A stretch of DNA of 64,000 nt from Symmetrospora coprosmae (lineage: Eukaryota; Basidiomycota; Cystobasidiomycetes; Symmetrosporaceae): contig VUYT01000007.1 of assembly GCA_008802785.1 (NCBI GenBank), positions 310,001 to 374,000 on the forward strand, given 5' to 3'. Below, piece after piece: positions 2,805-59,127 of this stretch (position 1 is its first letter; each line of letters starts with the position of its first letter). The notes under the pieces were generated by a model. The model had not been told where the DNA came from, searched no databases, and was given only the letters and a program-made list of their open reading frames with translations. A program made the position numbers and the translations under genes.

Positions 2805-3715
2805 TCAGTACTCTGCATTCGCAGGCAGAAGTTTGTCGAGCGCCTGCAGGGAGGCGCCCTCAAGCCGCATGCCGTCCCATTCCTCGCCAAGCGACTCTGC
2901 TCCGAGCGTCTTGTAGAAGGCGATAGATGGCTGACAGTGTGAATGGCAGGCTCAGCTTGTGCTCTTCCGCTCAGCTGATTGACAAGCCTAAGGCAACTCA
3001 CTGCGTTCCACTATCGATACCCGCGCGATCGGACAGACCGGTATCAGCTGAAGATGGCCGTCATTGAATCCTCCACCACACAGGAGGCAGCTTACCCGGA
3101 GGACAGACCACTCGAGACGTCCGCAGTCCCGCTCCTTCGCGAGCTTGCCGAGGTAGCCGAACAGGGCCTTTCCGATGCCCTTGCCGCGCTGCGATTCCTG
3201 GACGTAGAGGTCTGTGGTTGCGGATGAGAATGTGTGGTCAGCTTGGTATACTTAACGGTGCGGATGTTGCGGAGCGTACCCTCTAGGTAGATACCAGGCT
3301 TCCCCAGCCAGGTCGAATAGTTGTGGAACTGCATGGCAAGCAACGCATAAGGGGACGTCCGGGCATGTGCTCGTTCGCAGGGATACGGAGATGGCGACCG
3401 AAGCAGAAGCGGCGACGCTACGCACAAAGAGCGCCATTCCGACGGCCGTCTCGCCGTCGACGGCCAGCACGACCTCAGCGTAAGGGCGGGCGCCGTACAG
3501 CGTCTTACGGAGAGACTCCTCAGTCGCCTCGACTCGCTCAGGAGCCTTTTCGTAGCTACAAAGAGGCGACAGAGCGTACAGCGCGTCAGCTGACAATTAG
3601 TCGTAAGACCGGTCTTCCCATGATGTACGCACAGGGCAAGCTCCTTGATGAGCCCGAGGATGTGGGAGATGTCCGCTTCCGTTGCGGGACGAAGCTTCCA
3701 GCTAGATTGTGACAT
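2805..3715 (-). CDS. GNAT N-acetyltransferase, spermidine/thialysine acetyltransferase-like
   Basis: This is a 170-aa GNAT enzyme transferring acetyl from acetyl-CoA to a small amine, most like the SSAT/thialysine branch. Exons are 3715..3633, 3555..3426, 3328..3280, 3211..3096, a 9-nt exon 3010..3002, and 2930..2805. Splicing yields ELALYEKAPERVEATEESL, then FHNYSTWLGKPGIYLEDLYV, the acetyl-CoA loop QESQRGKGIGKALFGYL, and RLEWSVLRWNAPSIAFYKTL. The 9-nt exon supplies only W-N-A, exactly the residues needed between VLR and PSIAFY in this family. The gene converges on SEH1. The substrate cannot be decided from sequence. Confidence 0.85.
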
Positions 3716-3890
3716 GCTGTCTCTGCTCCTAGGTTCTTGTGCGTGTTGCTGCGAATTCAGTACACGAGTACGTAGATGGCAAATCGCGTCGGAGCTTAAC
3801 CGACCTGGAAAGCTGAACGGAGCACAACCCTCGCCCGAGTCGACACTCGCTGTCCTCCTGAACGAGCAGCAAACCGATATTGAGGGGAAG

Positions 3891-4518
3891 ATGGTCAAAG
3901 CTACACTCAACGGACAGACGCTCGCCGAGAGCTACGAGACCGTCTTTGTGTGCGCTTTCGGCGGTTTGCGTGTTCTCCGCACCGGCCGCGCGACTGACGA
4001 ATTGCCCCAAACCACCATATCCTGTCCGTTCCGTCTGACCTCCATAGTGAAGGCAACCATTAGTGCGTCTGGCACACCGGGGCTTTGCTTGGCAGGCCAT
4101 CCTGGCAGAGCAGGCGCGTTCAGGCTGACATATGCTCGGCAACCCTCGGACACGCTCAGCTTCCCGCCCAGCAGCGTCAAGTGGTCGCTCTTCACCGATT
4201 CGGACACACATACTACATGCGGCTGGAAGGGCGTCGCTACGTGCGTTTTCCAACGGTCCCTGAACATGAGCCCTGTCCCCCGCTGACATGTGCGCAACGG
4301 GCAGGTACAAGAACGCCAACCTCGAAGACGGGACGAAGATCAACGATGCCATGTGGTACTATCCGCAGTGCCATGTGCGCCCGAACTCTCGGCCTGAACA
4401 GTGTTACGTGCATGTAGCCCTGGCTGATTAGGTCGCGTCTGCGGACCAGGACACACCCCGAGCCAAGGCCATTGAGGGCTATGTCGCCTTCTACAAGAAC
4501 AAGGTGAACATCGCATGA
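3891..4518 (+). CDS. DUF427 family protein
   Basis: This is a small beta-rich DUF427 protein of about 110-120 aa, function unknown in fungi. Exon 1 is 3891..3949 (MVKATLNGQTLAESYETVFV). A 15-nt exon 4048..4062 supplies EGNHY. Exon 3 is 4160..4240 (FPPSSVKWSLFTDSDTHTT, then CGWKG) and exon 4 starts at 4305 (YKNANLEDGTKINDAMWYYP). The last exon ends AIEGYVAFYKNKVNIA and stops at 4516-4518. The EGNHYFPP, HTTCxWKG, AWYYP-like and HVAFY-like signatures are those of DUF427. The last intron is uncertain: a donor near 4373 with an acceptor near 4431 keeps the frame but leaves a longer loop than usual. Confidence 0.8.
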
Positions 4519-42641: not shown

Positions 42642-43351
42642 CTACTCATCCACAACAGCATCTCCTATCACAAGTCGAAGCATCTCCTTCGCAATCAACC
42701 CGGCCACGCACGGTTCCGCACTCGAAGCTGCGCGTGTCATCAAGGTCAGTACGGGCGAACGTGCAGGCACGCTTGCAAGGCGAGGCTAGCTCACCTGCTT
42801 CCCACCCAGCTGCCTCAGTCTCAAACTCCTTTCGTCGAGCATCCTTGTCAATCGGCCTGAAGTCGGCGTCCGAGATGGGGACGTGCCTCGCAGTGAGCAG
42901 GCGGGCGGTCTCGGAGTCTCGCTTGGCCAAATCGAGAACGGTGAGCTGTTAGGAGCAGTGTAGCGAACGCGTCAGGGAAGAGATCTCAATGGAGGCAGGG
43001 CTGGAGTCTCACCTTCTTGAGTGAAGGCTTGGCCGCGGTGCCGGCGTTGTGCTCGGCAGAGACGCTGCCAGGCGCGTCAGGCTGGCCGAGGGCAGGAGGG
43101 AGGGTGAAGGACTCGGACTCGGGGCTCATGGGCGGCGTGATGGTGCCCACTGCGAACGGATCCATGGTAGACCCCTCTCTGGCGGCTGCCTGCTGGAGGT
43201 ACTCGGCCTGGCGCAAACTGCGCTGCTGCTTGTTCCGACCCTTCGCCTTCTTCTGCACCGGCTGTGCTTCTGGCTGTCCTGCCCCCATGTCTGCCGCTGA
43301 CCGCTTGTTTCCTTGATTCTCTTTTCCTTTTCCCTTCTTCTGCTTGGCCAT
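42642..43351 (-). CDS. Small basic Lys/Gln-rich protein of unknown function
   Basis: This gene is unrecognised; it encodes 191 aa in exons 43351..43013, 42945..42795 and 42727..42642, all in phase. The N-terminus MAKQKKGKGKENQGNKRSAA is strongly basic with a nuclear-localisation character, and KKAKGRNKQQRSLRQAEYLQ continues it. The C-terminal half is ordered-looking: LTVLDLAKRDSETARLLTAR, HVPISDADFRPIDKDARRKE and CVAGLIAKEMLRLVIGDAVV. It is transcribed away from the helicase gene, with repeat-rich DNA between. It may belong to the same cluster. The sequence gives no enzyme motif. Confidence 0.6.
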
Positions 43352-44018
43352 TGCCTCGACGTTGTTGGTCTCAGGCGAACGAGAGGCAGCCACGGCAAAG
43401 ACCGAACCCGACCGCCTCCAGGACGGCGAGCCGACGCTCTGACAACGACCAACACAGCAGCAGCAACAACAGCAATAGCAGCAGCAGCAACAGTGTATCA
43501 GCAGCAGCAGCATATACGACATACAAGGTGTGTGTGCGCGCCCGTGTGCGTGTTTGTGTCTGGTGTTGTTTGACTGCAGGCTAGCACCAGGCGGACGCTG
43601 ACGCCCAGCTCTGCCAGTCTCTCCCACCCCTCGCTCACAGCAGCGGCAACAGCAGTAGCAGCAAGACGTGCAGCTCATCGACGAGTGCACGGAATAGGTG
43701 CGTGCTGCTGCTGTGCATTGCATGCCGGGAGCGTAGCCCCGTCGTGAGCATCGTGCCGGCGGACAGAGCCCGCTGACACCCTGTCTGCCTCCCCCTCCCG
43801 CAGAGCAGCACAGCAGCAGCAGCAGCAGCCAGAGTAGCAGGCAGGAGCGCACAGAGCAGCGCCGTACCTGCTCGTCAACGGTGCGTCCCGGCATTGTCCT
43901 CGGCGCCGACTGTCCGCCTCCCTCTGCAGAGCCCGCTCTCTGCCGTATGCTGACGCCGTCTTCTCTCCCCCCTGCCCACAGACACACAGACACACCCGCC
44001 CACCACACCACAAACCAC
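43352..44018. repeat. CAG/CTG- and CA/GT-rich divergent intergenic region
   Basis: The region between the small basic protein and the helicase gene holds CAG/CAA triplet runs at about 43453-43512, a GT-rich tract at about 43526-43560, further CAG/CAA runs at about 43635-43665, a CAG run near 43812-43835, and a C/A-rich tail leading into the CA tract at 44019. Minus-strand frames across it translate as low-complexity sequence and are not believable genes. Confidence 0.6.
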
Positions 44019-44084
44019 ACACCACACACACACACACAAAGTAGATCCAGTAGCTCTTAGAGCTCGGTGACACTAGTTGGTCCA
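44019..44084 (+). promoter_or_regulatory. CA tract plus perfect 13-bp palindrome upstream of the helicase gene
   Basis: A CA-dinucleotide tract (about 44019-44038) is followed by AGCTCTTAGAGCT at 44052-44064, a perfect palindrome with 6-bp arms and one central base. The ATG lies 20 bp further on. The same order (CA tract, then palindrome) precedes the next two plus-strand genes. It could be an operator, a transcription start element or an RNA hairpin; the sequence does not say which. Confidence 0.6.
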
Positions 44085-47078
44085 ATGGTCGCCAGACTCG
44101 AGCACAAGCTGCAGGATGACGGGCTGCTCCTATGCAACGAGACCCTCGCAAGCAAAGGGCGCAACATCTACAATGTCGTCGACGAGGTGCTCAGCCCTGC
44201 CGCGACGCTGCGCAAGCACCTGCTCGAGGCGCCTCTCGACCTCCTCAGCGGACCGACCGCCCCCTCCGCCAGGGTGCCATTCCCCCTCGCACAGCTCGAG
44301 ACGCCGGGCAAATACGGCTCTTACACGCAGCTCAGCGCCCGCCTAGCCGCCAACCTGCTCAACGAGCGCATCCAGAGCATCGACGCTGGCTGTCGTGCCG
44401 GCCTTGCCTGGTACCACGCGCACGTCAACCAGCGCGAGACCGGCCAGTACGCCGAGTACAGCCTGGCGCAGGTGAAGAAGGTCTTTCCCCAATACAGCAA
44501 CACGGAGGACCTGCCAGAGGATCTCGACCTCCACCCCTCGGACATCCTTCCCGGTCCATACGTCAAGGCCAAGGTCGCCTTTCGGAATTTTGCAATCCAG
44601 AACATGTGGAGCGACAGCATGACTCCACACACCCCAGTGCTCATCTTCGTCAAGCGCGTGAAGCCTGTGCTGGAGCACATGGTCATGGCTGCCTATACAG
44701 TCCTTGGCGAGACGTCCGACCGTCCCAAGCAAGATGGCAAGCAGGAGCACGCGTCACGCCGGCGCTCCAAAGGCAAGGGCAAGGCGACCGAGGGAGGAGA
44801 TCTCGACGAGCTGCAGGCGCTGAAGGACGAAAAGGAAGAGGAGGACGAGCAGGACAAGAGGAACAAGGGCTTTGCGAAGGAGATCTGGCTTCGGGTCTCG
44901 GACACGGCTTACCGCTCAGACGCCGCATTCGACAACCTGCGGCCCTCGACCCGCGCACAACCCTATGATGTGCTCAGGACGCCGGAAATCGAAATCAAGG
45001 TTGTGCGCCTCGACACGCTCTTCTTCGCCGAGTACGATCTCTCCTTGCTGTCGCGGCTTGCTCCTATCAAGCAGCGCGCGCTCCTCCGCCCTGCCGACTA
45101 CGCCGTCAAGCCCGACACCTTCCGGCTCAGCGATGCCGAGTTTGCGCAGTTCAGGTCTGAGGCGCAGCCTTACACCAAGCAGCAGCTCGCGCCCCAACAG
45201 CTGCGCTACGCCTTCAACTACGTCGCCTTCATTGTCATGCGCGCGCTTGCTGCACAGGATACCTACGGCTTCCTCGCGCTCGGCGGTCCGCCTGGCACGG
45301 GCAAGACGAGGACGATGTGCCAGGCCATTATATACAGCCGCCAGCGCAGCCTGCTTCGCCACGTCGTCCGGTACCTGCTGCAGTACCACCACATCCAGCC
45401 CCACGACGTCGAGAGCATTGTCGGGCGCGCACTCCAGCAGCCAGTCGTCTACATGGCGCCTACGAACGAGGCGGTCGACGAAGCGCTAGACACCCTCATC
45501 GCCATGCTCAACGACTTGCCGCCTGAAGCCAGCCTATACCTCACGGGCGTGCGCATCTGCAACTTTGACCGGGCGCAGAGGAAGCCAGAGCACATCCGGC
45601 ACCATGCGATCTATGCTGCTGCCAGTGAGCTTCTGACAGAATGGCACAATGAGATCGCCTCCATCAACGGCCAGCAGGGAGTGACTCAGAAAGCGGTGGA
45701 CGCGCTTCAGGCCAGGCTCAACGCCAAGGAGATTGGGCAAGAGGCGTTCGAGGAAGAGAAGCAGAGGATTTACGCGCAGCGCCAGGAACCTGACGCCGCT
45801 CGGTCCACGAGGCTGAACCAGCGCAAGCAGAAGCTCGAGAGCCGTGACTTTCTGCCTTGTCTGGACGCTTTCGTCAAGGATCCCGCCAGCTTTGGCAGCG
45901 CGGAGCTGACTGGCAGCCGGAAGTGCTTTACCAAGAGCATGTTGGCCTTGCTGGAACGGCGAGTCGCCGAACAGGTCATGAAGGACTGGAAAGTCATCTG
46001 CTTCATGACGACCGGCTACCCTACTCCATATCAGGAGGCCGCTCTCGACGTCCTCAACCTGGCCGTCGCAGTGTTGGACGAGGCCTCGCAGGAGCAGCTC
46101 AGCGACCTGGTGCGCATCCTGCTCGACACCATTGGGCTGGTTGCCTGCGGAGACGCCAAGCAGCTGGGCGCAGTCGTCAAGGGCGCAGAGGAAGGCTCGG
46201 TCGACCTGCGGATCAACCTCATGGACAAGCTAGCAGAGCAGACGCTATGGCTCACTCTGTGCTTCCGACTGCCCTGCGAGGTCACGTACTTCCTCGACGA
46301 GTACCGCTACAGTCAGTCGCGGCTGCACTCGGTGAAAGGGCAGAACATTCTGCGCTGGTCGCCGCTGCACACCATCGAGCTCTTTATGCCGGTGGTCTTG
46401 CTCGACAGCAAGGAGAGCAAGGAGGAATCGGTGGGCACCAGCAAGATCAACAAGAATGAAGCAGAGATCATCCGCAACTACCTCTTCCATCGGCACCGAG
46501 CGGGCGTGAGCGCCCGACAGCCTCCCATCGACGTCCGCATCATCACTCCGTACGCCGCGCAGGTCGAGCAGCTCAAGGTGACCTGCGGCGTCTTTGCAGG
46601 CTGCCCGAGCTTCAAGTCTTTCCGCATTGGGTCTATCGAGACGGCGCAGGGCTCCACGACGGACCTGTGCATCGTGTCCATGGTCGCCGCTCGGAACGCC
46701 GAGAACATCCTGCCGAACATTGGCTTCATCGACGAGAAGAGGCTCACAGTCGCCATCTCCCGCGCCCGCATCAACCTCCTCGTCGTTTGCAATGTGAGCG
46801 CGCTGAAAGAGGCCAACGATGGCAGCAATCCGCTGCTTGCGTCTCTCCTCGAACCCAACCTGGGGCCAATCCTCTACAGCCACCCCTCGGCTCTGAGCGC
46901 AGCGGCAAGCGGAGCGATGCACCGCAATCTGGTGTCGCTCGACAAACCGAGCGCGTGCGGTGCTCCGGTGTCGACGCTAGAGTGGCTCGCTCAGGGAGAG
47001 TCATCGGACGGCGCAGATTCGGCGGAGCGCATTGCGGCGCGGGTGGCAGAGCTCACTGAATGCCTGGCTGTACTCTAG
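44085..47078 (+). CDS. SF1 superfamily (UPF1-like) helicase, intronless
   Basis: A 997-aa protein in one exon starting at ATG 44085; the frame is open to 44067, but no ATG lies there. The first ~400 residues are a family-specific region with a Lys/Glu-rich insert near residue 240. Helicase motifs are AFNYVAFIVMRALAAQ (Q-like), ALGGPPGTGKTRTM (I), VVYMAPTNEAVDEAL (Ia), VAVLDEASQEQLSDLV (II), VACGDAKQLGAVVKGA (III), TLCFRLP (IV), IGSIETAQGSTTDLCIVSM (V) and RLTVAISRARINLLVV (VI). This is the UPF1/DNA2-like SF1B layout; no UPF1 CH domain is present. Its absence of introns contrasts with the rest of the window. It is co-oriented with the BRCT-like and nuclease genes, so DNA unwinding in a shared process is likely but inferred. 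Confidence 0.88.
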   Translation: MVARLEHKLQDDGLLLCNETLASKGRNIYNVVDEVLSPAATLRKHLLEAPLDLLSGPTAPSARVPFPLAQLETPGKYGSYTQLSARLAANLLNERIQSIDAGCRAGLAWYHAHVNQRETGQYAEYSLAQVKKVFPQYSNTEDLPEDLDLHPSDILPGPYVKAKVAFRNFAIQNMWSDSMTPHTPVLIFVKRVKPVLEHMVMAAYTVLGETSDRPKQDGKQEHASRRRSKGKGKATEGGDLDELQALKDEKEEEDEQDKRNKGFAKEIWLRVSDTAYRSDAAFDNLRPSTRAQPYDVLRTPEIEIKVVRLDTLFFAEYDLSLLSRLAPIKQRALLRPADYAVKPDTFRLSDAEFAQFRSEAQPYTKQQLAPQQLRYAFNYVAFIVMRALAAQDTYGFLALGGPPGTGKTRTMCQAIIYSRQRSLLRHVVRYLLQYHHIQPHDVESIVGRALQQPVVYMAPTNEAVDEALDTLIAMLNDLPPEASLYLTGVRICNFDRAQRKPEHIRHHAIYAAASELLTEWHNEIASINGQQGVTQKAVDALQARLNAKEIGQEAFEEEKQRIYAQRQEPDAARSTRLNQRKQKLESRDFLPCLDAFVKDPASFGSAELTGSRKCFTKSMLALLERRVAEQVMKDWKVICFMTTGYPTPYQEAALDVLNLAVAVLDEASQEQLSDLVRILLDTIGLVACGDAKQLGAVVKGAEEGSVDLRINLMDKLAEQTLWLTLCFRLPCEVTYFLDEYRYSQSRLHSVKGQNILRWSPLHTIELFMPVVLLDSKESKEESVGTSKINKNEAEIIRNYLFHRHRAGVSARQPPIDVRIITPYAAQVEQLKVTCGVFAGCPSFKSFRIGSIETAQGSTTDLCIVSMVAARNAENILPNIGFIDEKRLTVAISRARINLLVVCNVSALKEANDGSNPLLASLLEPNLGPILYSHPSALSAAASGAMHRNLVSLDKPSACGAPVSTLEWLAQGESSDGADSAERIAARVAELTECLAVL

Positions 47079-47763
47079 CTGCAGACCTGCAATACACAAC
47101 TACACTGCTCTGTATGTCTGCTGATGTTTGTGTACTCTGACGCGTCGTTGTCACTTTCTCCGTCTGCGCGGGGTTTCGGTGGCGGCGCGTCCCCGTGCCC
47201 CGGTGCTGCTTCTCCTCCCCCAAGTCCACAGCTCGACCTCTGGCACCCACCACAATACAGCAGCAGGGCAGCAAAGGACGGCTGTTCTGCAACTACAGGG
47301 ACATGTGAGTGACATTGCGACTGCTCCCTCCTCGCTGCCTAGCTCGCTGCGGCCCCGGCTGACCTGGCCTCGCGCGTCATCCACCCCTCCCACGCACCCG
47401 ACCTCTGGACGCCTTCAAACGGCCACTCCGCCAACAACAACAACACTGCACACACACACACACACACTAAGCAAGACCAGATCTGTCACAGATCGGTCGA
47501 GCTACATCGAGCTCGAGCTTGCTCGAGAGCCTCACCGCTTCGCAGCTTCCAGGGACGCCCCCGCCTGGAGCGAGGTCCCGCGCCGCCCATTTCGAGAAAA
47601 CGGCGACCGCGACACCTTGGTCGCCCGGGCAGCTACGGCTTCGACACCACCCTTGTTAGAACTGTACGGGAAGCAGCTACAGATTGGTGCTGGTCGCATC
47701 ACGCCTCCTCCGACTTCATCTTCCACTTCCCCCTCCGGCCCTCGGCCTTCGCCATCGCCCAAA
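47079..47763 (+). promoter_or_regulatory. Upstream region of the BRCT-like gene: CA tract and 15-bp palindrome
   Basis: Contains CAAACGGCCAC at 47416-47426, a CA tract at about 47449-47468, then GATCTGTCACAGATC at 47480-47494 (a perfect palindrome with 7-bp arms and one central base), followed by GGTCGAGCTACATCGA. The region before the nuclease gene at 51.9 kb repeats this arrangement almost word for word. The leader to the first ATG (47764) is then about 270 bp and GC-rich. Confidence 0.65.
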
Positions 47764-50700
47764 ATGCCCTCGACCTCGTTGACGAGATCGAGTCGACAGC
47801 GGAAGACACAGTCCGCATCCGAACCTGCGGCATCCAGTCTCGATGATGGCGCCAGCGCCGTTCCTGCTGCTGCTGCTGCTGCTGCTGCTGCGTCCATCCC
47901 TGCTGCGCCGTCACCTCCACCGAAGATGGCCGGCACCTCCGCGTCTGACGGAATGGACTGCGACCAGCACAGTGAGCGCTTCACAGCAGCAGAGAAGGAA
48001 AAGGGACCCGCACGCCCGCAAGACGGCGACGGTGCAGGAACGGGCGAGGACGACCAGAGCGCGCAGCTGCGCCTTCGCAAGATGCTGCGCCTGAACAAGT
48101 GCAACAGGTGCTGGAAACCTCTGCCAGAGCCAGAGGATAACAAGCAGTCTGAAGGCAAGCACCGTATGTTGATCTCTGTCTGATCTGGCCCACATGCGAG
48201 CCCAGACGACATGCTAAATGCTCCTCCTCTCTCAGTGCACTGCTACATCGCAGAGCAGATTGTCCATGGCAACCCTTCCGATATCAAGCTCGCACTACAC
48301 TTTGGTGTCGACGACGCGGATGGCTTGGCCGGTTTCTGCAAGCTGCTGATCCCGCGGATCTACGGCGAATGCAGCATCGAGGAGCCTGAAGAGATCCAGC
48401 ACGCGATCAGCGCACCCAAAAAGCCCCGCCCAGTAGCGGCTCCTCTCGACAAGTTGAGCCTCGGCGACTCGCGCATCCTGGAGAACGTCCACTTCTTCGA
48501 ACAGATCTTCTCCACCGTTCAGATCTGGCAGCACTTTGGCGGCGACCTGCTCGCGGACAAGGAACTGCAGCAGAAGCTGGTCGTCAAGCTTCTCGAGGAG
48601 ATCGGGCAGGTCTTTGCCGACTCCAGGTCGTACATGCCCGACGTCCAGCTGTACTCCCTTTCGGCGCATCTCGTGGGCGTACTCCGTTGGCTCGCCAAGG
48701 GCACCGCCGACCTCTGCAGCTCCCTCCACGGCGACGACCTCCTCCAAGCGATGGAAGCGTACTGGCAGGAGACCAGCATCAAGCAGATCATGCTGGGCAT
48801 GACGAGGCACAGCAGATGGCAAGTCGAGGAGCGAGATCTCTGCCTCTGGCAGCAGCCGCCTCCCGTGCGAGCCTCTCTAGCACCGGATGCCTACATGGCT
48901 GCCGCAACTCGCCTAGAGGAGCTCATCTATGGCAGCTCGACTGCCTGCTCTGACAACGCCGTCAAGATTCACGCCATGCTGAGCGGCATCAACGCCCGAA
49001 CTCGAGTGTACGACGAGCGACCGATCTCGTACAGCACGCTCAAGATCCAGCGGACCGTCAAGCAGACGAAGACTGAATCCGCGGCACCTGACTCGGTTGA
49101 GGCAGGAGCGGGGGATCAGGTCGAAGCGGGTGTCGCCGCAGACGACGCGGGGGAGAAGAAGAAGAAGAAGACCAAGAAGGAGAAGGAGCCCGAGCCCGTG
49201 GTCCCGCTCAGCGACTGGCCTGCGCCGGAGCCCTCTGCACCCTTCGACCCAGAGGTAGCGGCAAAGGCCGCAGCAGAAGCAAAAGCCAAGGCCGAGGCGG
49301 CAGCGGCGGCGAAAGCGTCAGCAGCAGGCCAGCCGGCACGTGCAGGAAAGCGGGGCGGTAAAGCTCCTCCGACCACGTTACGCAAGCAGCGCAAGCCTGC
49401 CCAGAGGAAGTCAGGCGCCTCCGCTTCCAGCTCCAGCAAGAAGCCTGGCACGAAGAGATCACGCTCGGCCGTCGATGAGGAGGACGAGGTGCAAGACTGG
49501 GAGGAGGAGGGCGAGCAGGACAGTGATGCTCGGCCTGTCAAGTCGAGAAAGAAGGCGAAAGGAAAGGCTGCGGGGGTGACGACATCCGCGCCGGCGCCGA
49601 CCAGGGCATCTAGAAGCTCGAGAGCTGCCGCCGCAAACAAGGTGAGTGTCTATGGCCGGGATCCCATCAGAGGCGGCACCCTGACACTGCGCCGCAGTCC
49701 TACCGCGAAGCAGCAGACGACGACGAGGCAGCGGTGGACGACCAGGCAGCAGACGACGATCAGCCAGAGCAGCCGGCGCGGAGGCAGCGTCTGCAGCCTT
49801 CCCCTGCGCCCCTGCAGACCCTCTCCCCGAACAAAGGACTCCCAGCCAGACACGGCGGCAGATCTGTTCCTGCATCTCCGGTTCCTGCCAGCCCCGCTCG
49901 TCTTTCTACAGCATCTCCCGCTCCTGCTCTCTCTGTGACGAGCGCCGGACCCCGCGTCGCACCCCGCATCGTCAGCGCTGCGCCTTCAGCCCTCCTCGTC
50001 ACGCGAGCGGGTGCGACATCGACAGCCACGGCGTCCACCATCCAGACACGCGCAGACGCTGCCTCGCTACCGGTCCTGGCCGTGGTGCCCAAGGCAGCAG
50101 TCGCAGCAGCAGCAGCAGCAGCAGCGAACCCCACTATCGTGGGATCCACAGAAGGTCCGCCTTCGCTGCCAGCAAAGGTCGAGTCGGGAGCCGGGCCATC
50201 TCGAGTCGGCAAAGATCGCGGCCCGGCAGGCGGAGCAGCTGCAAACGGGCGCTCCTCCAGCTTACGACCCCTGCCCGACCAGTCTGAGCCAGAGCAGGAA
50301 GCTGCAGCCCGCAGCACGAGTAGGAGCAAGCGCGTTGGTGCTCTCAGCGAGGCCAGCGCGTCGACGTCGGGCGCTCCGGTAGCGCCAGTTGTGCCTGCCA
50401 AACGAACACGAAAAGAGCAAGCAGGCGAGCAGGTCAGTCGAGAGGGGGGCTCCCACGCATCGAGCAAGGCTGACTGAGCTCCTGGTCTTCAGAATGAGGC
50501 CCCAAAGGGAGCCGAGCAGAAGCGGCCGGCGCCCGCGAAGAAAGCTAAGACGCTCGCTGTCCAGAAGGTCGGTTCCCATCTCCGTCGCTATCACCCGCTC
50601 GCCTAAAGCTGATGGCGCGACTTTTCCATAGAACGAGCAAGATCATCAAGACGCCCAGACGTCCAGCGAGACGCAGGTTGTTCACAAAGTGGGTCGCTTG

Positions 50701-51423
50701 CGGCACAGTCAGCAAGTATACATGCTGAGCTCGCATGCGCCTTGCCTACCTTTCAGCTGTACATTTCGACAAGCTCCATAGAGCTGCGTGCTGCCGTCAA
50801 ACGCACACCCAACATGACCCTCACCGAAGATGTCGCCGAGGCCGACTACTTCGTCCTCAATCCGGCATTTGCGCCCGCGAACTGCATTCAGGCCATCATC
50901 AGCGACGTCGAGATCATCAGTGAGGCAGATCTCGCCGACTGGATGGCTTATTACAAAGATCGAGGTAGGCAATGCCGCACCTCCTGACCTTCCCCGCTTG
51001 GACTGAACAGGGTCTCCTGACAGACGGGCCGACGAAAGGAGCCTTTGCGACTCCAGCGTACGAAACGAAGGGCGGGTGTGACCTGTCCGCAGCCGTGCAG
51101 AACCGACATAAGAAGCCGGACTTCCTGGCTGGTCGATTCTTTGCGCTGGCGGACGATGTCATTGGCCCCGAGAAGAAAAACCTCGCGGGCGACATCACAA
51201 GGTACATCGAGGCTGCAGGCGGAGCTATGGCCGATCCAGCAAAGACCAGACCTGTGAGCCTCCCCGCAACGCACTCTGCACGAGAGACGAGCTGGCGCTG
51301 AGACAGGCCCTGCCTCGCGCTCAGGCTCGGGTCGAGACAATCTACAGGAAGACGGCTCCCTCCAAGGGAAAGAGCATTCATGTAGATGCATTCATGAAGA
51401 TGCTATATGCACAGAAGGCATAA
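47764..51423 (+). CDS. Large chromatin-type protein with Cys motif and BRCT-like C-terminal segments
   Basis: Predicted 1069 aa. Exons are 47764..48163, 48236..49641, 49698..50432, 50493..50567, 50632..50688, 50757..50964, 51024..51253 and 51325..51423; the total is in frame throughout. The N-terminal 100 residues are Ala/Ser-rich. A possible zinc-binding stretch is MLRLNKCNRCWKPL followed by HLHCYIAEQIVHG (Cys/His pattern). An alpha-helical region follows, then a long Lys/Glu, Ala/Pro and Ser-rich linker with several basic clusters. Two C-terminal segments look like BRCT modules: KLYISTSSIELRAAVKRTPN to IISEADLADWM, and RFFALADDVIGPEKKNLAGD with ITRYIEAAGGAMADP. BRCT domains usually bind phosphoproteins in DNA repair. 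Assignment rests on pattern only. Confidence 0.6.
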
Positions 51424-52043
51424 GCACAGGTACAAACGGTTTTCCTCTCTATCACACAACAGAAGCATTAGCATGTATCATTCTCCTCTCGGGTCCTACA
51501 GCTTTCACATCTTTCACATCTTTCTTTCTTTCTCCCTTTCTTCTTACTTCTCACTCGTTCTTCCTCCTTTCCTCTACTCTCCTCTGATGAGCGCCTTCTC
51601 GCCCTGATTGTGTCTGCCAGTAGGGCGTCTCCCTTTGTGCTCCGCGAAGCTTTGGGCGCGCGGAGATCCCCCCTTTGCAAATTCGGATGCGCCGTTGTCC
51701 CCAGAGGTCGGTCTGCTTTGCTCCAAACCACTGATATTGCACTGGCAGAGACGCCTGCGCACCCTTCAAGAAGCTGTGAGTGCAGCCGTCGCTCGTGGAC
51801 GGGTCTCGCTGCCGGTGCTTCCAGCCGTGCGTCAGCGCTGCCGCTGACCCTGTCCCCTTTCCACCTCCCGCCCGCCCAAACGGCCACATCACCAATCACA
51901 CACACACACACACACCCTCGACTCGACACACAAACCACAATAGCGTCGATCAGATCTGTACCAGATCGGTTGTGCTACATCGACCACCCCTCAAGACTCG
52001 ACAGCTCGCGCCCGTCCTCCAGAGGGCGGGCCGCACCTCGACC
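51424..52043 (+). promoter_or_regulatory. Upstream region of the nuclease gene: CA tract and 15-bp palindrome
   Basis: Carries CAAACGGCCAC at 51877-51887, a CA tract at about 51896-51915, then GATCTGTACCAGATC at 51953-51967 (6-bp arms, three-base centre) followed by GGTTGTGCTACATCGA. The same four elements in the same order precede the BRCT-like gene. A pyrimidine/TTC-rich stretch at 51500-51580 probably belongs to the upstream gene's 3' end. The ATG at 52044 is 76 bp past the palindrome. Confidence 0.65.
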
Positions 52044-55000
52044 ATGGGCGTCAACAAGGGCCATCCCTCTAAAGAGGGCAGGCAGAAGAGACTGGTAAAG
52101 AACCGCCGCAACCCGCTCTACGCAGCAGCCACCTTCCCAGACATCGAGACACCCCACCCGCACCTGCAGAGTGCCGTCACTGGCGCCAAGAGCGGCGCGA
52201 CTCGCGCGGGCCAGCCGCTCGGTGGGCAGCAGGCCGATTGAGGCACTGATACGTGGCGCTACATCTAACCCAGTCTGCTCTTCTGCTGCTCCATCCCACA
52301 CAGCCGTTGTTGTCGACGTCTTCGGCCATCTCGGATACCTGCGCCATTCCCTGCCGGGCGACATCTACGAGCGACGCGTCAAGGCCGCCTTCTGGAAGCC
52401 GAACGGTACCTTCGACCTACAGAGCGTCCTCGCCGATGCCAGCGGAGAGTACTCGAAGGCCTTCAGTCGGCACCTGCAGGACCTTGATGACTCGCTCAGA
52501 AAGGGGCAGCGTGCGGTGCTCAGCGGGCAGGACAAGCTCGTGCGTGCTCCCTAGGGCAGCGAATAGCTCCGTTGTACATGTACTCATGGCCTTCTGCTGC
52601 ATCACACAGATCTACTTTGTCGACAACAGCTTGCAAACGACGGGCGCAAAGCTCCGCGAGGCCCTGCTGCGGAAGGCAAAGGACGACAAAGGTCGCCAGC
52701 TCTTCGATGCAGCCACGAAGGAGCTCGTCAGCCTGCACGCACAGCAGCTGCCGCAGTCAGCGACGAAGGCTGAGCGAAACAAGCGGGCGTCCCGTGTCAA
52801 GCATCTGCTCAAACACGTGCGCCAGAACGCCGCGACGCGCGCCCCTCTCACCATCATCCCGCCCCGAGACGCCAGGATCGTCAACGAGAACCCGCTCGGC
52901 CTGCAGGCCACTCCTCCGACTCCTCTGCAGCGCAAGGACGTTGCAGACGCGTACGCTGCAACGAACCCAGATCTCGTCAGCGTCGCGGCAATGCAGCAGC
53001 CGGTCTACGTCAAATGCCTCGATGAGGCCGATATCTCCATCTACCGATGGGCAGCCGTGGCGAGCGCATCCCACACTGTCGTCGTCCTCAGTGGGGACAG
53101 CGACTTTAACTATATCCCTCGCCCAGAGGAGGTCCGCTATACCATCGGCTACCGCAGGAGAGAGGAGAAGCACATCCTCACAAACAACACCTCCTTCCAT
53201 GAGTTCCACATCGACCGGCCGTGGACGTCGCCAAAGGAAGCCAGGATGACCGCGCTCCTCGTCGGGCACGACTATTGGCCCACCGGGCTGAGCGGCCTTG
53301 GAATGAAGCGCCTGATTGCGGACAAGGCTCTCGTACGAGGAGTAAGTGCCAACCACAGACCTTCCTGATCTACGCTGACCAGTGGCTTGGTCCTCTTGTA
53401 CCGCAGGCTAGCTGGAGCATGACCAGGGCGCGTCTAATCACGCTGGCAGGAAGGCAGGGCGCCCCGCGCATCTGGAAGCTCGCTCAGGAACAGCTAGACG
53501 ATCATCGCGAGCAGCTGCAGCATGCGCTGGACGTGATGAATCTTTACTACCATCCGCCAGAGCGACACGCCACGGCGGAGCAGCTCGCCAGAGAGCCGCT
53601 GCCGGAAATCGAGATCCCGGCAGAGGGCACGGCGCCCACACCTGATCCACGCCTGTCTCTACGCTTCCCTGGGCACAGGAAGGAGCCGCGACCGGTTGTC
53701 GCCATGAACAGCAAAGACGAGGTGGATGCCGCGAGCCGTTCCGCAAGCCGCCGTCCCGCTAGATGCAAGAACTTGACGCTGCACAGCGGCCGCAACGCGC
53801 ACGCAGCCTTCTCTGCAGCTCACATGGAGCATCTCGAAGCGCCTCTGCTCGATCTACGCCGCCCTCATCACCGCCCACCGTACGACCCCGCTATCGACGG
53901 CTTTGCGTCAGCAAACGACCACCCTGCGCGCCGAGAGCGACAGTCGCTCTTTGCAGGCATGGGCGGTCATGCAAACACGGCACCAGCCTCAGCAGGAGCA
54001 ACAGCAGCAGGCCCGCAAGCAGCAGCAGCAGCAGGCCAGCAAGCAGCAGCGGCCGCACAAGGCGAAGAGGACGCTGCTCCAGCGCAGGAGGAGGAGGAGG
54101 AGGAAGAGGAGGCAGTCGAGCCACCTAGTAGCTCGGAATTTTCCGGGGGTATGTACGAGGTTCACACCAGCAAAGTACGGCTCCGCAAGGCGATGCGTGC
54201 CTTCAAGCCTCACCACCTCGGCGCCAACAACCCCCTGGAGCCTCTCGTCAAGCTCGTCGTCCTCGGCAAGCGAGAGATGATAGCGGTGCTCAACGCAGCC
54301 GCGCGGTGCTATGCTCGCGAGCTCTGCCTGCCGGACGCCAGCGACATCGGCAAAGTCCGGTTCTGCGCCTCTGTGCAGCAGGCTCAGGATCCTTTGCGCC
54401 AGCTGGTGCAGCTCTTCTTCGCCCCGCCTCCCCTAAGCGCCGAACCGGTGATGAGGGTCACTCTGGACGATCTCATCAATGACTGGGTGGCTCAGTTTAC
54501 TCCGGTTGACGGCAGCAGCGCCGAGTGCAGACTGCGCATCAGCCGGTACATAGAGCAGCACCCTATCAGCCCGACCGTGCTTGAGCGCTACCTCATTCGT
54601 GTCCGTGGCGGTGTCATGAATCCAGACCACGCCGATCCTTGCCTCCTGCAGATCGCGTCGCGCTTCCTCGGCGATCATCTATCGCTGTACCCAGATCTGC
54701 CTGGCGAGAAGGACAAGTGGGTCAACGAGATGATGCGCATCGGCGTGCACCAGAAGCGTATGAGGTCTCAGGCCGCCCTGAAGCAGTGGCTCAAGAGCGA
54801 GCTCAAGCGAAGGTGTGGAGCAGACCTCTGCGACCCAGCTCTGCAGCTCTTGTGGGATGCCGAGCACCACGCCATTGTCGACGTGAGCTGGGCCAGCCAG
54901 GTCCATGGTCAGCTTGGGACCACCGCCGAGAACGACAGCTCGCTCCACGAGTTCTTGCTGCTTTTCCGGGACCGTCACCACTTCTTGCCGCTTCGAGGAG

Positions 55001-57410
55001 ACCACCAGTCGCTTGCTCGTCTTTTCGCTCGGCCTTCTCAGTCCTACGGGCAGCTTGTGCCCTTCTTCGGAATGCTTGGACGTGACTTCTCTGTCGTGAG
55101 TTTCTCTCACCCGCGAAGGCGTGAACGATGGCTGATTGTTCGCCCTCACAGAATATTCGCCCCTTGTTCGTTCACTTCAACTTCAAGCACACTTACAACC
55201 TGCTCAATAACTGCAAGGCGATTGTCATTCGTCTGCTGGAGTGGCTGAATGGTCGCCCGGCACTCTCGAGACGCCACCCTCGTGCGGCCACCGCATCGAA
55301 CCGTCGCGCTGGGGTCCTCGAGCAGAGCAGGCGGGCGTTCGTCAAGATAAGCGGCCTTTGGGTTGCCAGGAGCGACTGGTTAGCGGAGATAGAACACCTC
55401 GGACAAGACATCCTGCGGCGAGCTGGGGCCACCAACGGCACCAACATCTTCTGCCGCATCCCGTTGATGGATGTCCTCTTCGACGACCGCTGCTTGCGGT
55501 CGGGTCACATCTGGCAGGGCACCTGGCATACGGACGGCGTCACTGTGGGGTTGGGCATGCTCGACGTGCGCACCATCACACTGCCAGAAGAAGGAGGTGC
55601 GCCGGGCAAGCCAAATGTACGTGACCGAGTTCAGCGTGGCAACCCGGCATCGTCAACCGTGCCCAACCCGACTCCCCTCGAGAGTAGGACTATCTCGCAC
55701 ATGTTCCTGTCCGCTGTCGCGGCCGGCGTCGATAGCTCGTTCTGCAGAATCGACGCCATCAAGAAGAGGACGCTCGGCTACTCCTACCGTCGTTCGGCAG
55801 ATCCGAAGAAGAAGTTCGGCATCCGCACTCTCATCCACAACACATACGACCGGCTGGAGCGTCCTCGCCGTCCCGCAGCCCCGAAGAACAACGTTTCGCA
55901 GGAACGCTACAAGGCCGAGGCGAAACGGGCTGCCCGCCGCGAGAACTTTCCACACTTCGGGACACGGACAGTGCTCATTGCGACCAAGTCCTCCCGTAAG
56001 CAGAAGAACGGTCTTCCCGCGTCCGTCCTTCACGTCAGCCGAGATCGTCCGGCCATTCTCGAGGAGATGAAGAGGCTCGTCGACACCTACCACCACAAGA
56101 TCGCGGCGGTACAAGGGGCTGCGCCGGCTGCACCAAATGTGCCCGAGGCTGCCTCTGATACCGACATGCCAGCAGCTTCTACGTCCACGCCCGCCAGTGC
56201 TCCCCTGCCAACAGCTGCTGCCTCGACGTCTGCTCCACCTCATCAAACGCCCGCTGTGCCTCAGCCCGCACCACCGCAGACTCACGCTGCGCCTTCGCCT
56301 CCTCTCTTCAGCACAGATCGCCCGCGAGAGCTCATCGAGCAGTTCATCCGGTTCGGTCTCGACGAGGGAGTCGCCTTTGTCGCCTGCGTCGCCAAGCAAG
56401 ACAGTCAGCTCGACCAGAGCGCCGGTCTCGCGCTCTGCTCAAAAGGCCTCGATGCCATTCGCCGAGAAGGCAACACGCGCCAGTCCGGCCTCGAAAACAG
56501 CTTTTCCTGCGACTTCAAGCAGCTATGGGCGGAAATGAAGGAAGCTCAGGATGCCATCGACGCCCTAGAGGGTCAAGCGAACAATGCAGCAGATCGACAG
56601 CGTACCACTCTGTCCGCTCGAGTGCTGGAGAGCCAAGCTATGGACGAGGGCAAGCGCCGGCTTCTCCAATCCGACCATCAGTACGGCCTGAACAAGTTCA
56701 CAGCATACCGCGCAAGGTCCTCTATCTTTTCTCGCTTCGCTCAGCAGCTGGCGGAGTTCCTGTGGACGGATCTGAAGGGTCCTCTCCGGCCCGTCTTCGG
56801 CGCTCTCGGAGACGGCTGCGGCTTTGGCCACGATGGCCGCAAGAACAGGAACCCGCCCTTTGCCAAACCTCTCATCAAGTACGTCATGGACTGGATGAAG
56901 GGTCGTGGCTACCCCTTTTTCGTTGCCTGGACGGACGAAGCGTTCAGCTCTCAATGCTGCCCCGACCCGCTTTGCCGTCGTCCGCCGGGAGCAAACGATG
57001 ACGATGGGAGCTGGCGTGAGGAGCTTAGGCAGGCGGGACCCTGCACAATCGAGAACCTCGCACAGCGCCTGCACTGGATCCGCAGTCGGTGAGTACCGCT
57101 CTGGCGCTCCTGTTTGGCCTCCTCTAATCCTACTCCCCCCCGCAGCATGTTCAAGCCATATCGGAACGGCAGCAACACGCCCGTCTATCGGATTCTGCAG
57201 TGCGAGACGTGCTTCCGTACATGGAACCGCGACATCAGCGCGTCGTTCTGCATCGTGCAGATTGCTGAACACCAGCTCGTGCACAATGGCCTCCATCCTT
57301 TCAGGAGGACTGACGAGGAGGTCAATGCAGGAAACGGCGAGGAGAACGCAGTTGCAGCAGCAGCCGTGGGCCTTGATACAGAAGCGGAATATTATAGCAG
57401 AGAGTCGTGA
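52044..57410 (+). CDS. FEN1/XPG-type nuclease fused to a Fanzor/TnpB-like RuvC nuclease
   Basis: Predicted 1678 aa. Exons are 52044..52221, 52304..52539, 52610..53341, 53407..55095, 55152..57088 and 57146..57410; lengths sum to a whole frame. Residues ~60-370 match an XPG/FEN1 PIN nuclease. Acidic positions appear in order: AVVVDVFGHLG, IYFVDN, CLDEADISIY, VVVLSGDSDFNYI, then the helix-hairpin-helix-like LLVGHDYWPTGLSGLGMKR. After a Gln/Ala/Glu-rich linker (~600) and an unassigned helical region, the C-terminal third resembles Fanzor. RuvC-I-like HTDGVTVGLGML is near 1073, and GALGDGCGFGHDGRKNRNPP near 1498. It continues with WTDEAFSSQCCPDPLCRR, then ILQCETCFRTWNRDISAS, with paired Cys of a zinc ribbon and the RuvC-III Asp. 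Both nuclease cores look intact. TnpB relatives are RNA-guided; that is inference here. Confidence 0.72.
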
Positions 57411-57490
57411 TGACCTCTAGGGGAGAGTTTCGTAAAGGTCTCCTTGTACTTAACAGCTGCCACGTCGTCGTAATGCAGCACGGGCGTGAT

Positions 57491-57919
57491 CGTACGTCTC
57501 CTCTGCCTGTCCCGGAAGCTCCAGTAGGAGCGACAGAAGCCGACTTTGTCAAGATCGAGACGCTTGAGGTGCTTCCATTCGACCAGATGGTGGGCAATGT
57601 AATCAGAGGATGTCGATCTGTCGTGATCGCGATCTTGATCGTATGCTCCGAAGGCGAAAGCCCTGAGGGATTGTAGACCAGACAGAGCGTCTCCTAGCTC
57701 CATGACCTCCTGGCTATCTTGTTCGAAGAAGCCGTTCCCGATGGTAAGGGTATTTGGGCCGGCTAAGCGGATCAGGGCCGCCAGCAGCGCTGGGCTTGCA
57801 GACCCAGTCCTGAAAGTCCACGCAAGGCTGGTCGTGGCGTTTGCGAGTTCCTTGCTGTCGCTCAGCGACCTCTTCAGAAGCGATGCGCGACATTCTGCCC
57901 GGATGAACAGGGTTGTTTG
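57491..57919 (-). pseudogene. Truncated inverted copy of the F-box gene
   Basis: The minus strand here repeats 40825-41280 of the F-box gene almost exactly: the translation runs RASLLKRSLSDSKELANATT through HLVEWKHLKRLDLDKVGFCR. Relative to the source it has a 12-bp deletion after the CCTGTTC word, a second small deletion of about 14 bp near its 57.5 kb end, and only a few substitutions. It lacks the F-box start and the whole C-terminal repeat region. A 187-aa frame (57392-57955) crosses it, but this is read-through into flanking DNA, not a credible gene. The close identity suggests a recent duplication. Confidence 0.9.
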
Positions 57920-58038
57920 TGTGCGCCACCGTGCACCGAAATCTTCGAAGCCCAAGACGGCGAAAGAGCATACTCAGCTTCGCACTACAATCAGAGGCAA
58001 CCATAACCAGTCACAGCCTCACTACAGCCGTCTTCATC

Positions 58039-59127
58039 ATGTCCATGATCTTCCGCAAAGCTGCTGGCGCGAACAGCACGACGTTGTTGCGCTCGCTCCT
58101 TGCGGCGCCGACCACCTCGTCAGCTGCAGCTGCCGCGTTCTCGCGGCCCATGTCGGTCTCAGCCATGATCCAGGCTGGTCGAGGTGGCTTCCAGTCGTAC
58201 GGCTCTCGAGAGCCTTCTGCGCCGTCAAAGACGCTCTTTGTTGGCGGCCTCAGCTGGGACACGACCTCTGACGAGCTCCGGGAGGCATTCGAGAGGAACT
58301 ACGGCGAGAGCGTCGCCAGCTCCAAGCTCATCTGGGACCGCATGCAGGACAGGAGCAAAGGGTCAGTTGATCTCAGTCCGCGCTCACTCCCGGCCGCCTC
58401 GAGCTGGCTGCGCCTGGACTACAAGCTGATGGTGTCGTCTATCTTTTGCCTCCGCGTCAGATTCGGCTACGTCGAGTTCATCGACGAGGCAACAGCCACG
58501 CAGGCGAAGGAGGACATGAATGAGGCGCTGCTCGGCGGCCGACGGATCCGACTCGACTACGCCAACGCGGACCCAGCAGCCAGCAGTACCGGCCGTGGCG
58601 CTGGCAGACGCGACCGTGGCGATCGCCCACCATCGCCGCCCTCGCCCACTCTCTACTTTGGCAACTTGCCCAACGCAATGAGCACATCCGAGCTGAGCGA
58701 GATCCTGACCGAGGAGCTCGGCAGCGAGGCTGCGCCCGTCGATGTGCGGATGCCCATGGGCCGCGATGGCGGCGACGGCGATGCGCAGAACAAGGGCTTT
58801 GGCTACGTTCAGTTCCAGAGCACCGAGGAGGCCACCGCAGCGCTCACCAAGCTTCGCGAAAAGGCCGAGTCCGGCGAGTTCACCCTCGAAGGCCGCGAGC
58901 CGAGGATCGACTACGAGACGCCTAGGAAGGAGTTCAGTGCCGACGGCGGGCGAGGCGGTCGTGGAGGATTCGGAGGATTCGGCGGAGCGAGGGAAGGCCG
59001 CGGAGGCAGCTACGGAGGCAGGCGTGACAGCGACCGTTTCGACCGGGCCCGCAGTGACAGGGGCGGCCGTTCGGACAGGTACAGTGGCGGCGGCGGCGGT
59101 CGCAGGGGCTCCGACTACGATCTCTAA
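58039..59127 (+). CDS. Two-RRM, RGG-tailed RNA-binding protein, possibly mitochondrial
   Basis: A 329-aa protein in exons 58039..58361 and 58461..59127. The first 50 residues (MSMIFRKAAGANSTTLLRSL, then Ala/Ser/Arg-rich) look like a mitochondrial presequence. RRM1 has RNP2 TLFVGGLSWDTTSDELREAF and RNP1 KGFGYVEFID, split by the intron. RRM2 has PTLYFGNLPNAMSTSELSEI and NKGFGYVQFQSTEEATAAL. The tail is an RGG/GGF region with repeated DR/RS dipeptides, as in nucleolin/Gar2-like proteins. The promoter starts next to the truncated F-box copy. A nucleolar role (Nsr1-like) is possible if the leader is not cleaved. Confidence 0.85.
   Translation: MSMIFRKAAGANSTTLLRSLLAAPTTSSAAAAAFSRPMSVSAMIQAGRGGFQSYGSREPSAPSKTLFVGGLSWDTTSDELREAFERNYGESVASSKLIWDRMQDRSKGSVDLSPRSLPAASSWLRLDYKLMVSSIFCLRVRFGYVEFIDEATATQAKEDMNEALLGGRRIRLDYANADPAASSTGRGAGRRDRGDRPPSPPSPTLYFGNLPNAMSTSELSEILTEELGSEAAPVDVRMPMGRDGGDGDAQNKGFGYVQFQSTEEATAALTKLREKAESGEFTLEGREPRIDYETPRKEFSADGGRGGRGGFGGFGGAREGRGGSYGGRRDSDRFDRARSDRGGRSDRYSGGGGGRRGSDYDL

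Follow-up and report, generated by a model that had tools for sequence, protein, structure and literature searches.

The 64,000-nucleotide (nt) stretch of Symmetrospora coprosmae contig VUYT01000007.1 analysed here, henceforth the window, carries at 52044-57410 of its forward strand what its sequence defines as a single gene model, gene C, whose predicted product joins an N-terminal domain resembling the FEN1/XPG nucleases to a C-terminal half resembling the Fanzor1 nucleases. As read from the genome sequence, gene C is the 3' gene of a dispersed and repeated cassette of roughly 13.5 kb that encodes a superfamily 1 (SF1) helicase (gene A), a protein B (gene B) and the fusion protein. The preliminary description of this DNA had already placed both nucleases in one protein, and this proposal is supported here by the recurrence of the architecture, of the exon structure and of both catalytic sets in copies within the genome; the cassette context, with its sharp right end, lies beyond what had been described. 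That the fusion and its motifs are genuine we regard as nearly certain.

Gene C comprises 1678 codons and a stop in one spliced frame of six exons, which bears out the continuous frame of about that length reported before, and all five of its introns (56-82 nt) have GT-AG borders. The splicing is inferred from the DNA together with the paralogues, and the residues discussed below are distributed over the exons as follows.

52044-52221, + strand: gene C exon 1, with a Met-Gly start as in FEN1/XPG
52304-52539, + strand: gene C exon 2, carrying D64
52610-53341, + strand: gene C exon 3, with D143, E277/D279, D301/D303, D359 and G..GxG, the putative core of the FEN1-like domain
53407-55095, + strand: gene C exon 4, with the tail of the FEN1-like domain, a linker and a conserved middle region (640-945)
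55152-57088, + strand: gene C exon 5, with the putative WED TDG at 1072, RuvC-I D1349, GDG at 1498, the relocated Glu E1541, and C1548 and C1553 (first half of the ribbon)
57146-57410, + strand: gene C exon 6, with C1610, C1613 and R1619-D1620 (putative RuvC-III)

The middle region we assign to the Fanzor half solely by its position. The acidic motifs previously likened to those of FEN1 could all be located with their order kept (VVVDVFG at 61, FVDN at 141, DEADIS at 276, GDSDFN at 300, GHDY at 357), and they recur in divergent paralogues of the same genome. Further along the protein come TDG (1072), GDG (1498), DEAFSSQCC (1540), CETC (1610) and RDISAS (1619), the last four being the GDG, DExxSSQCC and CxxC...RDISAS blocks (1498, 1540 and 1610-1619) that had been noticed earlier.

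Copies were sought in the whole genome (20.05 Mb in 77 contigs, designated by C-numbers; its size and the intron lengths would suit a fungus), where exon 5 found eight places and exon 3 nine, the window copy being counted in both. Full-length comparison with the window identified C17 and C55 as full-length copies of the fusion architecture, while an N-terminal piece (C45) and a C-terminal piece (C10) lie at the edges of their contigs. In the N-terminal part, the copies are 57% (C17), 38% (C55) and 32% (C45) identical to the window, and in the RuvC part 61% (C17), 34% (C55) and 33% (C10). The modelled intron phases (1,0,0,0,2) are identical in the window, C17 and C55, the least certain of the modelled introns being intron 3 of C55 with its unusual GC donor. 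Between the window and C17, the differences at codon positions 1/2/3 are 0.33/0.27/0.52 in the FEN1-like part and 0.20/0.18/0.48 in the RuvC part, with third positions differing 1.9 and 2.7 times as often as second ones, respectively, and this pattern points to purifying selection on both parts. A chance origin of the motifs is unlikely, since the divergent paralogues of the same genome retain them with single exceptions (TNG in C55, an Ala in C45).

Degenerate pieces of gene C were found at C14, C11, C5, C12 and C17:248k. At C5 (L023, ~3708-4060) lies a more divergent Fanzor-like C-terminal piece with DEAYTSQCC and CEKC..RDTSGAF, in degraded surroundings. C10 and C45 were considered as halves of one gene but are treated separately; their orientation is compatible, but an end overlap of 9-200 nt is absent and no junction could be demonstrated. 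A second, more distant FEN1-like family, starting MGVKGLLPILRD, is represented by two copies, 95.5% identical, at the ends of contigs C9 (L026) and C17 (L027); it is without a Fanzor half in its assembled portion and has P0005 and P0006 as relatives. Among other public sequences, P0001 (92%) and P0003 (96%) are close relatives and P0002 and P0004 are C17-like by eye; at least two of these genes therefore have close relatives in another strain or species. A search of the protein database with the whole protein gave no match at E<=1e-3 among 7998 scored candidates, and two pattern scans of viral contigs gave 21 and 93 matches, none of which was confirmed.

The N-terminal domain is very probably of the FEN1 type. 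In an alignment of five sequences (the four paralogues and C9), M1, G2, D64, D143, D279, D301, D303, G357, D359, Y360, G364, G367 and G369 are invariant, and E277 is retained in four of the five rows. The seven acidic residues expected of FEN1/XPG nucleases are found in order (D64, D143, E277, D279, D301, D303, D359), and, with the Met-Gly start, we take them to correspond in order and kind to the seven carboxylates of FEN1. Compared with the PDB, a four-sequence profile returned FEN1/GEN1 as five of nine matches at E<=10 (best 0.057), and a five-sequence profile returned FEN1/GEN1 chains as seven of eight at the same threshold (best 0.0097), mainly through the GxDY..GxG block. We count as weak support an hhalign comparison with two-row host FEN1/EXO1 pieces, whose score was reached by none of 100 column shuffles (E 0.0034). 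The domain thus resembles the 5' nucleases FEN1, XPG and GEN1 in its Met-Gly start, its ordered acidic residues and its GxDY..G..GxG, and it differs from them in escaping detection by the Pfam XPG models and in being joined to a Fanzor-like nuclease. Several observations speak against such an assignment. The FEN1/GEN1 matches in the PDB are short and modest, the hhalign probability against host FEN1/EXO1 is just 9.4%, and E277 is an Ala in C45. Moreover, none of the Pfam and NCBIfam XPG_N/XPG_I or FEN1 models matches the N-terminus, C9-type copies included; PF00867 has five matches elsewhere in the genome but misses every one of the fusion genes; and an AlphaFold2 model of exon 3 alone was uninformative (mean predicted local distance difference test score 42.5).

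We assign the C-terminal half to the Fanzor1 type with comparably high confidence. The motif D-x(125,275)-[TS][TS]xx-C4-x(5,50)-RD, given for Fanzor/TnpB proteins by Bao and Jurka (excerpts of PMC3627910), is fitted by D1349, a spacing of 194 residues, S1544-S1545, C1548/C1553/C1610/C1613, a spacing of five residues and R1619-D1620, and a looser regular expression with the same motif order also matches C17 and C55. According to the excerpted text of PMC10711439, TDG is a WED-domain motif of Fanzor1, and Fanzors have their RuvC-II Glu six residues ahead of the zinc-finger Cys and a RuvC-I that is nearly exclusively DPG. In the four rows compared (window, C17, C55 and C10), E1541 is kept throughout, six residues before C1548 as in Fanzors, and TDG stands at 1072 in the window and is present in C17 and C10. 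This TDG had previously been taken for RuvC-I, a reading that proved wrong and was rejected; it matches the Fanzor1 WED motif, and RuvC-I is best placed at D1349 (LDEGVAF, 1349-1351), where the DxG is conserved as DEG or DTG in all four rows. PF07282 (TNB domain) matches the four rows, at best with 1.3e-6, and its curated cut-off of 26.3 bits is exceeded by the C55 (27.1) and C10 (31.7) pieces; from NCBIfam, guided_TnpB matches two of the four rows (best 7.1e-4) and IS607_TnpB one.

Here, too, some results pull the other way. C55 has TNG in place of TDG, and DPG occurs at RuvC-I in none of the four rows. With 12.6-15.0 bits, the window copy stays below the PF07282 cut-off, the sole Pfam match of the whole window protein being a sub-threshold one to this model (1539-1627, E 0.16); the exon-by-exon search of the genome with PF07282 found nothing at E<=0.001; and no TnpB/Fanzor chain is among the matches of the RuvC profiles in the PDB. 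Set beside known Fanzor1 proteins (SpuFz1, GtFz1, PpFz1 and relatives), the C-terminal half shares the WED TDG, the split RuvC, the Glu six residues before the ribbon, the C4 ribbon and the RD, and gene C likewise adjoins the right end of its putative element. In contrast, the long N-terminal FEN1-like domain, the DEG/DTG instead of DPG, the large insertions, the three-gene helicase cassette and the lack of a recognised transposase set it apart.

Upstream of gene C, the cassette contains the following features.

44061-47078, + strand: gene A, a putative SF1 helicase, SEN1/UPF1/SMUBP2-like, in a single exon (stop-to-stop frame, first ATG at 44085)
47475-51423 (approximate limits), + strand: gene B, multi-exon, family not recognised, with homologous pieces at the same position in C17, C55 and C15
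47475-47510, + strand: leader motif of 36 nt upstream of gene B, with one mismatch to the pattern
51948-51983, + strand: leader motif of 36 nt upstream of gene C, with a predicted hairpin (z -3.04 against shuffles)

Gene A matches AAA_12 (1.4e-23) and AAA_11 (4e-11) in Pfam, and SEN1 (7.1e-14) and UPF1 (3.9e-12) in the PDB, and its copies are 60% (C17), 41% (C55) and 36% (C15) identical. A motif of the HUH type in its N-terminus was considered and dropped, the HAHV not being conserved. Gene B has a low-complexity middle and a conserved C-terminal region that is BRCT-like by eye only, and gave no Pfam match in the three stretches scanned. The order A-B-C and the strand are kept in the window, C17 and C55, where helicase and right end delimit a span of ~13.3-14.2 kb. 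At C15:303705-309149, a helicase (36%) and the start of a gene B running off the contig end represent a fourth cassette lineage. The leader pattern was written from the gene B and gene C sites themselves, with 0 matches expected by shuffles, and the leader hairpins may possibly be a control element of the cassette. Both follow a CA-repeat. Just ahead of the gene A start, the window and C17 have a block of ~27 nt in common, and a loosely leader-like hairpin at 44040-44070, before the same start, is likewise common to C17.

On the other side, the cassette is bounded by the following two features.

57403-57479, + strand: right end and candidate omegaRNA scaffold, terminating ..CAGCTGCC-N-GTAATGCAGC at 57479
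57491-57907, + strand: right flank repeat outside the element, with an inverted copy at 41280-40851 (99% over 409 base pairs from 57499, the remainder by eye)

The right end extends over ~50-80 nt, its final ~50 nt being alike in all seven copies and the likeness reaching further in the closer ones. The block just past the gene C stop is 78-89% alike in C17, C10 and C55, and the same block is 94-97% alike at C73, C34 and C12, which have no intact gene C assembled alongside. All seven finish ..GTAATGCAGC, and the letters beyond differ. The exact pattern CAGCTGCC-N(4-20)-TAATGCAGC was found at 7 genomic sites and its reversed control at none, a count that copies with a mismatch would escape. The contigs C73 and C34 end inside the right end, as expected given that repeats break assemblies.

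An omegaRNA from the right end is suggested by position and conservation and not by structure, because the fold is no better than that of shuffles (z 0.32 and -0.32) and the consensus fold shows a double-sided change in just one of 18 predicted pairs, both of which count against it; Rfam gave no match at E<=0.5 in 43000-58500. In two of the seven cases (window and C17), a flank segment duplicated elsewhere on its contig starts 2-20 nt past the right end, the C17 segment (162033-162117) having its direct copy at 162592-162677. Inspection by eye shows a small indel ~10-22 nt away from the end in each element-side copy of these two flanks, and a 15-nt tandem copy at the C73 junction. For the 200-nt flanks of C55, C10, C12, C34 and C73, the genome holds no match other than themselves. 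As a hint from two cases, the flank repeats resemble products of end joining with a templated filler, and they lie within a range in which a guided cut would be possible.

We think it likely, with some reserve, that the cassette is a mobile element. Its left side argues against this: the DNA similarity between the window and C17 ends leftward at ~43987, and within 0.8-2.3 kb upstream of the four helicase copies there is neither a common left terminus nor a copy of the right end in either orientation, a terminal inverted repeat included. C2:849-916, a candidate in this search, matched only through a CA-repeat. No target duplication was found, and no transposase or DDE family was recognised in gene A or in the scanned gene B stretches, part of gene B lying outside the scan.

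Helitrons have a HUH nuclease, a Pif1-like helicase and a CTRR 3' end. Those carrying Fanzor1 resemble the cassette in combining a helicase with Fanzor1, in a possible 5-base-pair hairpin at the 3' end and in that no inverted repeats were found, whereas the helicase here is UPF1/SEN1-like and not Pif1-like, no HxH is conserved in gene A (by eye) and the right end terminates in GCAGC and not CTRR. Academ elements are characterised by a DDE transposase and terminal inverted repeats, and their nuclease is reportedly XPG-like. The cassette is akin to them as a probable eukaryotic transposon with a nuclease or helicase, and departs from them in its SF1 SEN1/UPF1-like helicase and its TnpB-type nuclease; neither a DDE family nor a terminal inverted repeat was seen in the regions scanned.

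It is to Academ that the strongest of the alternatives appeals, namely that the element transposes by means of its FEN1-like domain and helicase, whether or not gene B also encodes a transposase that escaped recognition, and that the Fanzor half only guards against loss. The helicase and the FEN1-like part are indeed conserved together with the cassette. Furthermore, in excerpts of PMC10045372 (2023), AcademX carries a nuclease and AcademH a helicase, and the target-duplication lengths of the two lineages are linked to the encoded helicase and nuclease. Against it stands the absence, in the stretches scanned, of an inverted right-end copy on the left and of a DDE family, and the fusion to the Fanzor half suggests that both halves work together. 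We give this alternative a real but minor chance, clearly behind a cassette in which guided cutting and flap processing are coupled.

Rather less probable is an old, domesticated host gene family in which the right end would be a conserved 3' regulatory sequence. An identity of just 33-61% in the RuvC part, the purifying selection between the window and C17 and the kept introns would suit it, but a right end also accompanies what is no more than a relic at C12, two contig ends carry one at 97% identity, relic fragments are scattered over C14, C11, C5, C12 and C17:248k, and the flanks are unrelated. An RNase-H-like DDE transposase in place of a TnpB/Fanzor nuclease is an improbable reading of the C-terminal half. 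In its favour, TnpB folds are related to DDE folds, no TnpB emerged from the profile searches of the PDB and RuvC-I is not DPG; against it, PF07282 exceeds its cut-off in two paralogues, guided_TnpB matches two of the four rows, and the WED TDG, the relocated Glu and the RD..AAFNI order are present. Finally, an erroneous join of two neighbouring genes, conceivable insofar as the model derives from DNA, exon 4 ties the FEN1-like tail to the middle region only (with its Fanzor assignment by position) and the link to the clear Fanzor motifs crosses intron 4, is judged very unlikely on the evidence of the paralogues, for in the window, C17 and C55 alike exon 4 runs stop-free up to a GTGAGT donor and ends at an identical residue and phase, the entire order recurs in C17 and C55, and in C45 one open frame of 731 amino acids (intron 3 read through) connects the FEN1-like core with the middle region.

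Returning to the cassette as a mobile element with a dual nuclease, we propose that guided cutting and flap processing probably help it to spread or persist. Fanzors are RNA-guided DNA cutters (excerpts of PMC10432273), and in IS200/605 TnpB elements the guide begins in the flank adjoining the right end (excerpts of PMC10711439). Since the right end lies directly 3' of gene C, by the IS200/605 logic the fusion protein would cut an empty site and spare a filled one. Transcription across gene C and the right end is predicted to yield an omegaRNA made of the right-end scaffold and a guide from the flank past 57479, guided by which the Fanzor half would cleave the corresponding empty site, be it a sister, homologous or vacated locus. 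FEN1-like nucleases act on 5' flaps, the products of helicase-driven strand displacement. The helicase and the tethered 5'-flap nuclease could then unwind and trim the break or the displaced strand of the element, and repair would insert or restore the element by copying. In this way the fusion would bring flap processing to the guided cut and couple cutting to end processing. Every step past the sequence anatomy is inferred. We see about even odds for a retention or homing that combines RNA guidance with tethered flap processing, and the explanation taken as a whole is, with modest preference, the best one at hand. A bolder version, which we put forward only tentatively and consider rather unlikely, is a eukaryotic element of a new class, lacking a classical transposase and composed of an SF1 helicase, protein B and a dual flap/RNA-guided nuclease, that would home by guided cutting and copying, use its right end both as terminus and as guide-RNA scaffold, and leave end-joining scars just past that end.

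Within the open PMC full text, outside of which Repbase and subscription papers lie, no paper combines Fanzor with XPG, and no such fusion or element appears by title among the matches listed. The excerpts of PMC10711439, PMC3627910, PMC10432273 and PMC11423790 contain no natural fusion of Fanzor with another nuclease; in these, 'fusion' and 'fused' ('fused' alone for PMC11423790) are absent or refer to tagged constructs. The novelty would lie in the addition of a FEN1-like domain to a nuclease of the Fanzor1 type, within a putative element that we could not assign to a known group.

Taken together, these findings bear on the role of Fanzors, which sit in very different eukaryotic transposons and whose function there is an open question. 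A Fanzor and a 5'-flap nuclease in one protein, encoded beside a helicase, amount to a natural experiment, in which evolution would have found a use for DNA-end processing at a guided cut. The system offers testable parts in a defined right end, seven natural flanks as possible guides and two active sites that can be inactivated separately, and a protein that both cuts and trims may be a lead for editing tools. If it is true that no transposase exists, the cassette would represent a new mode of movement for a eukaryotic element.

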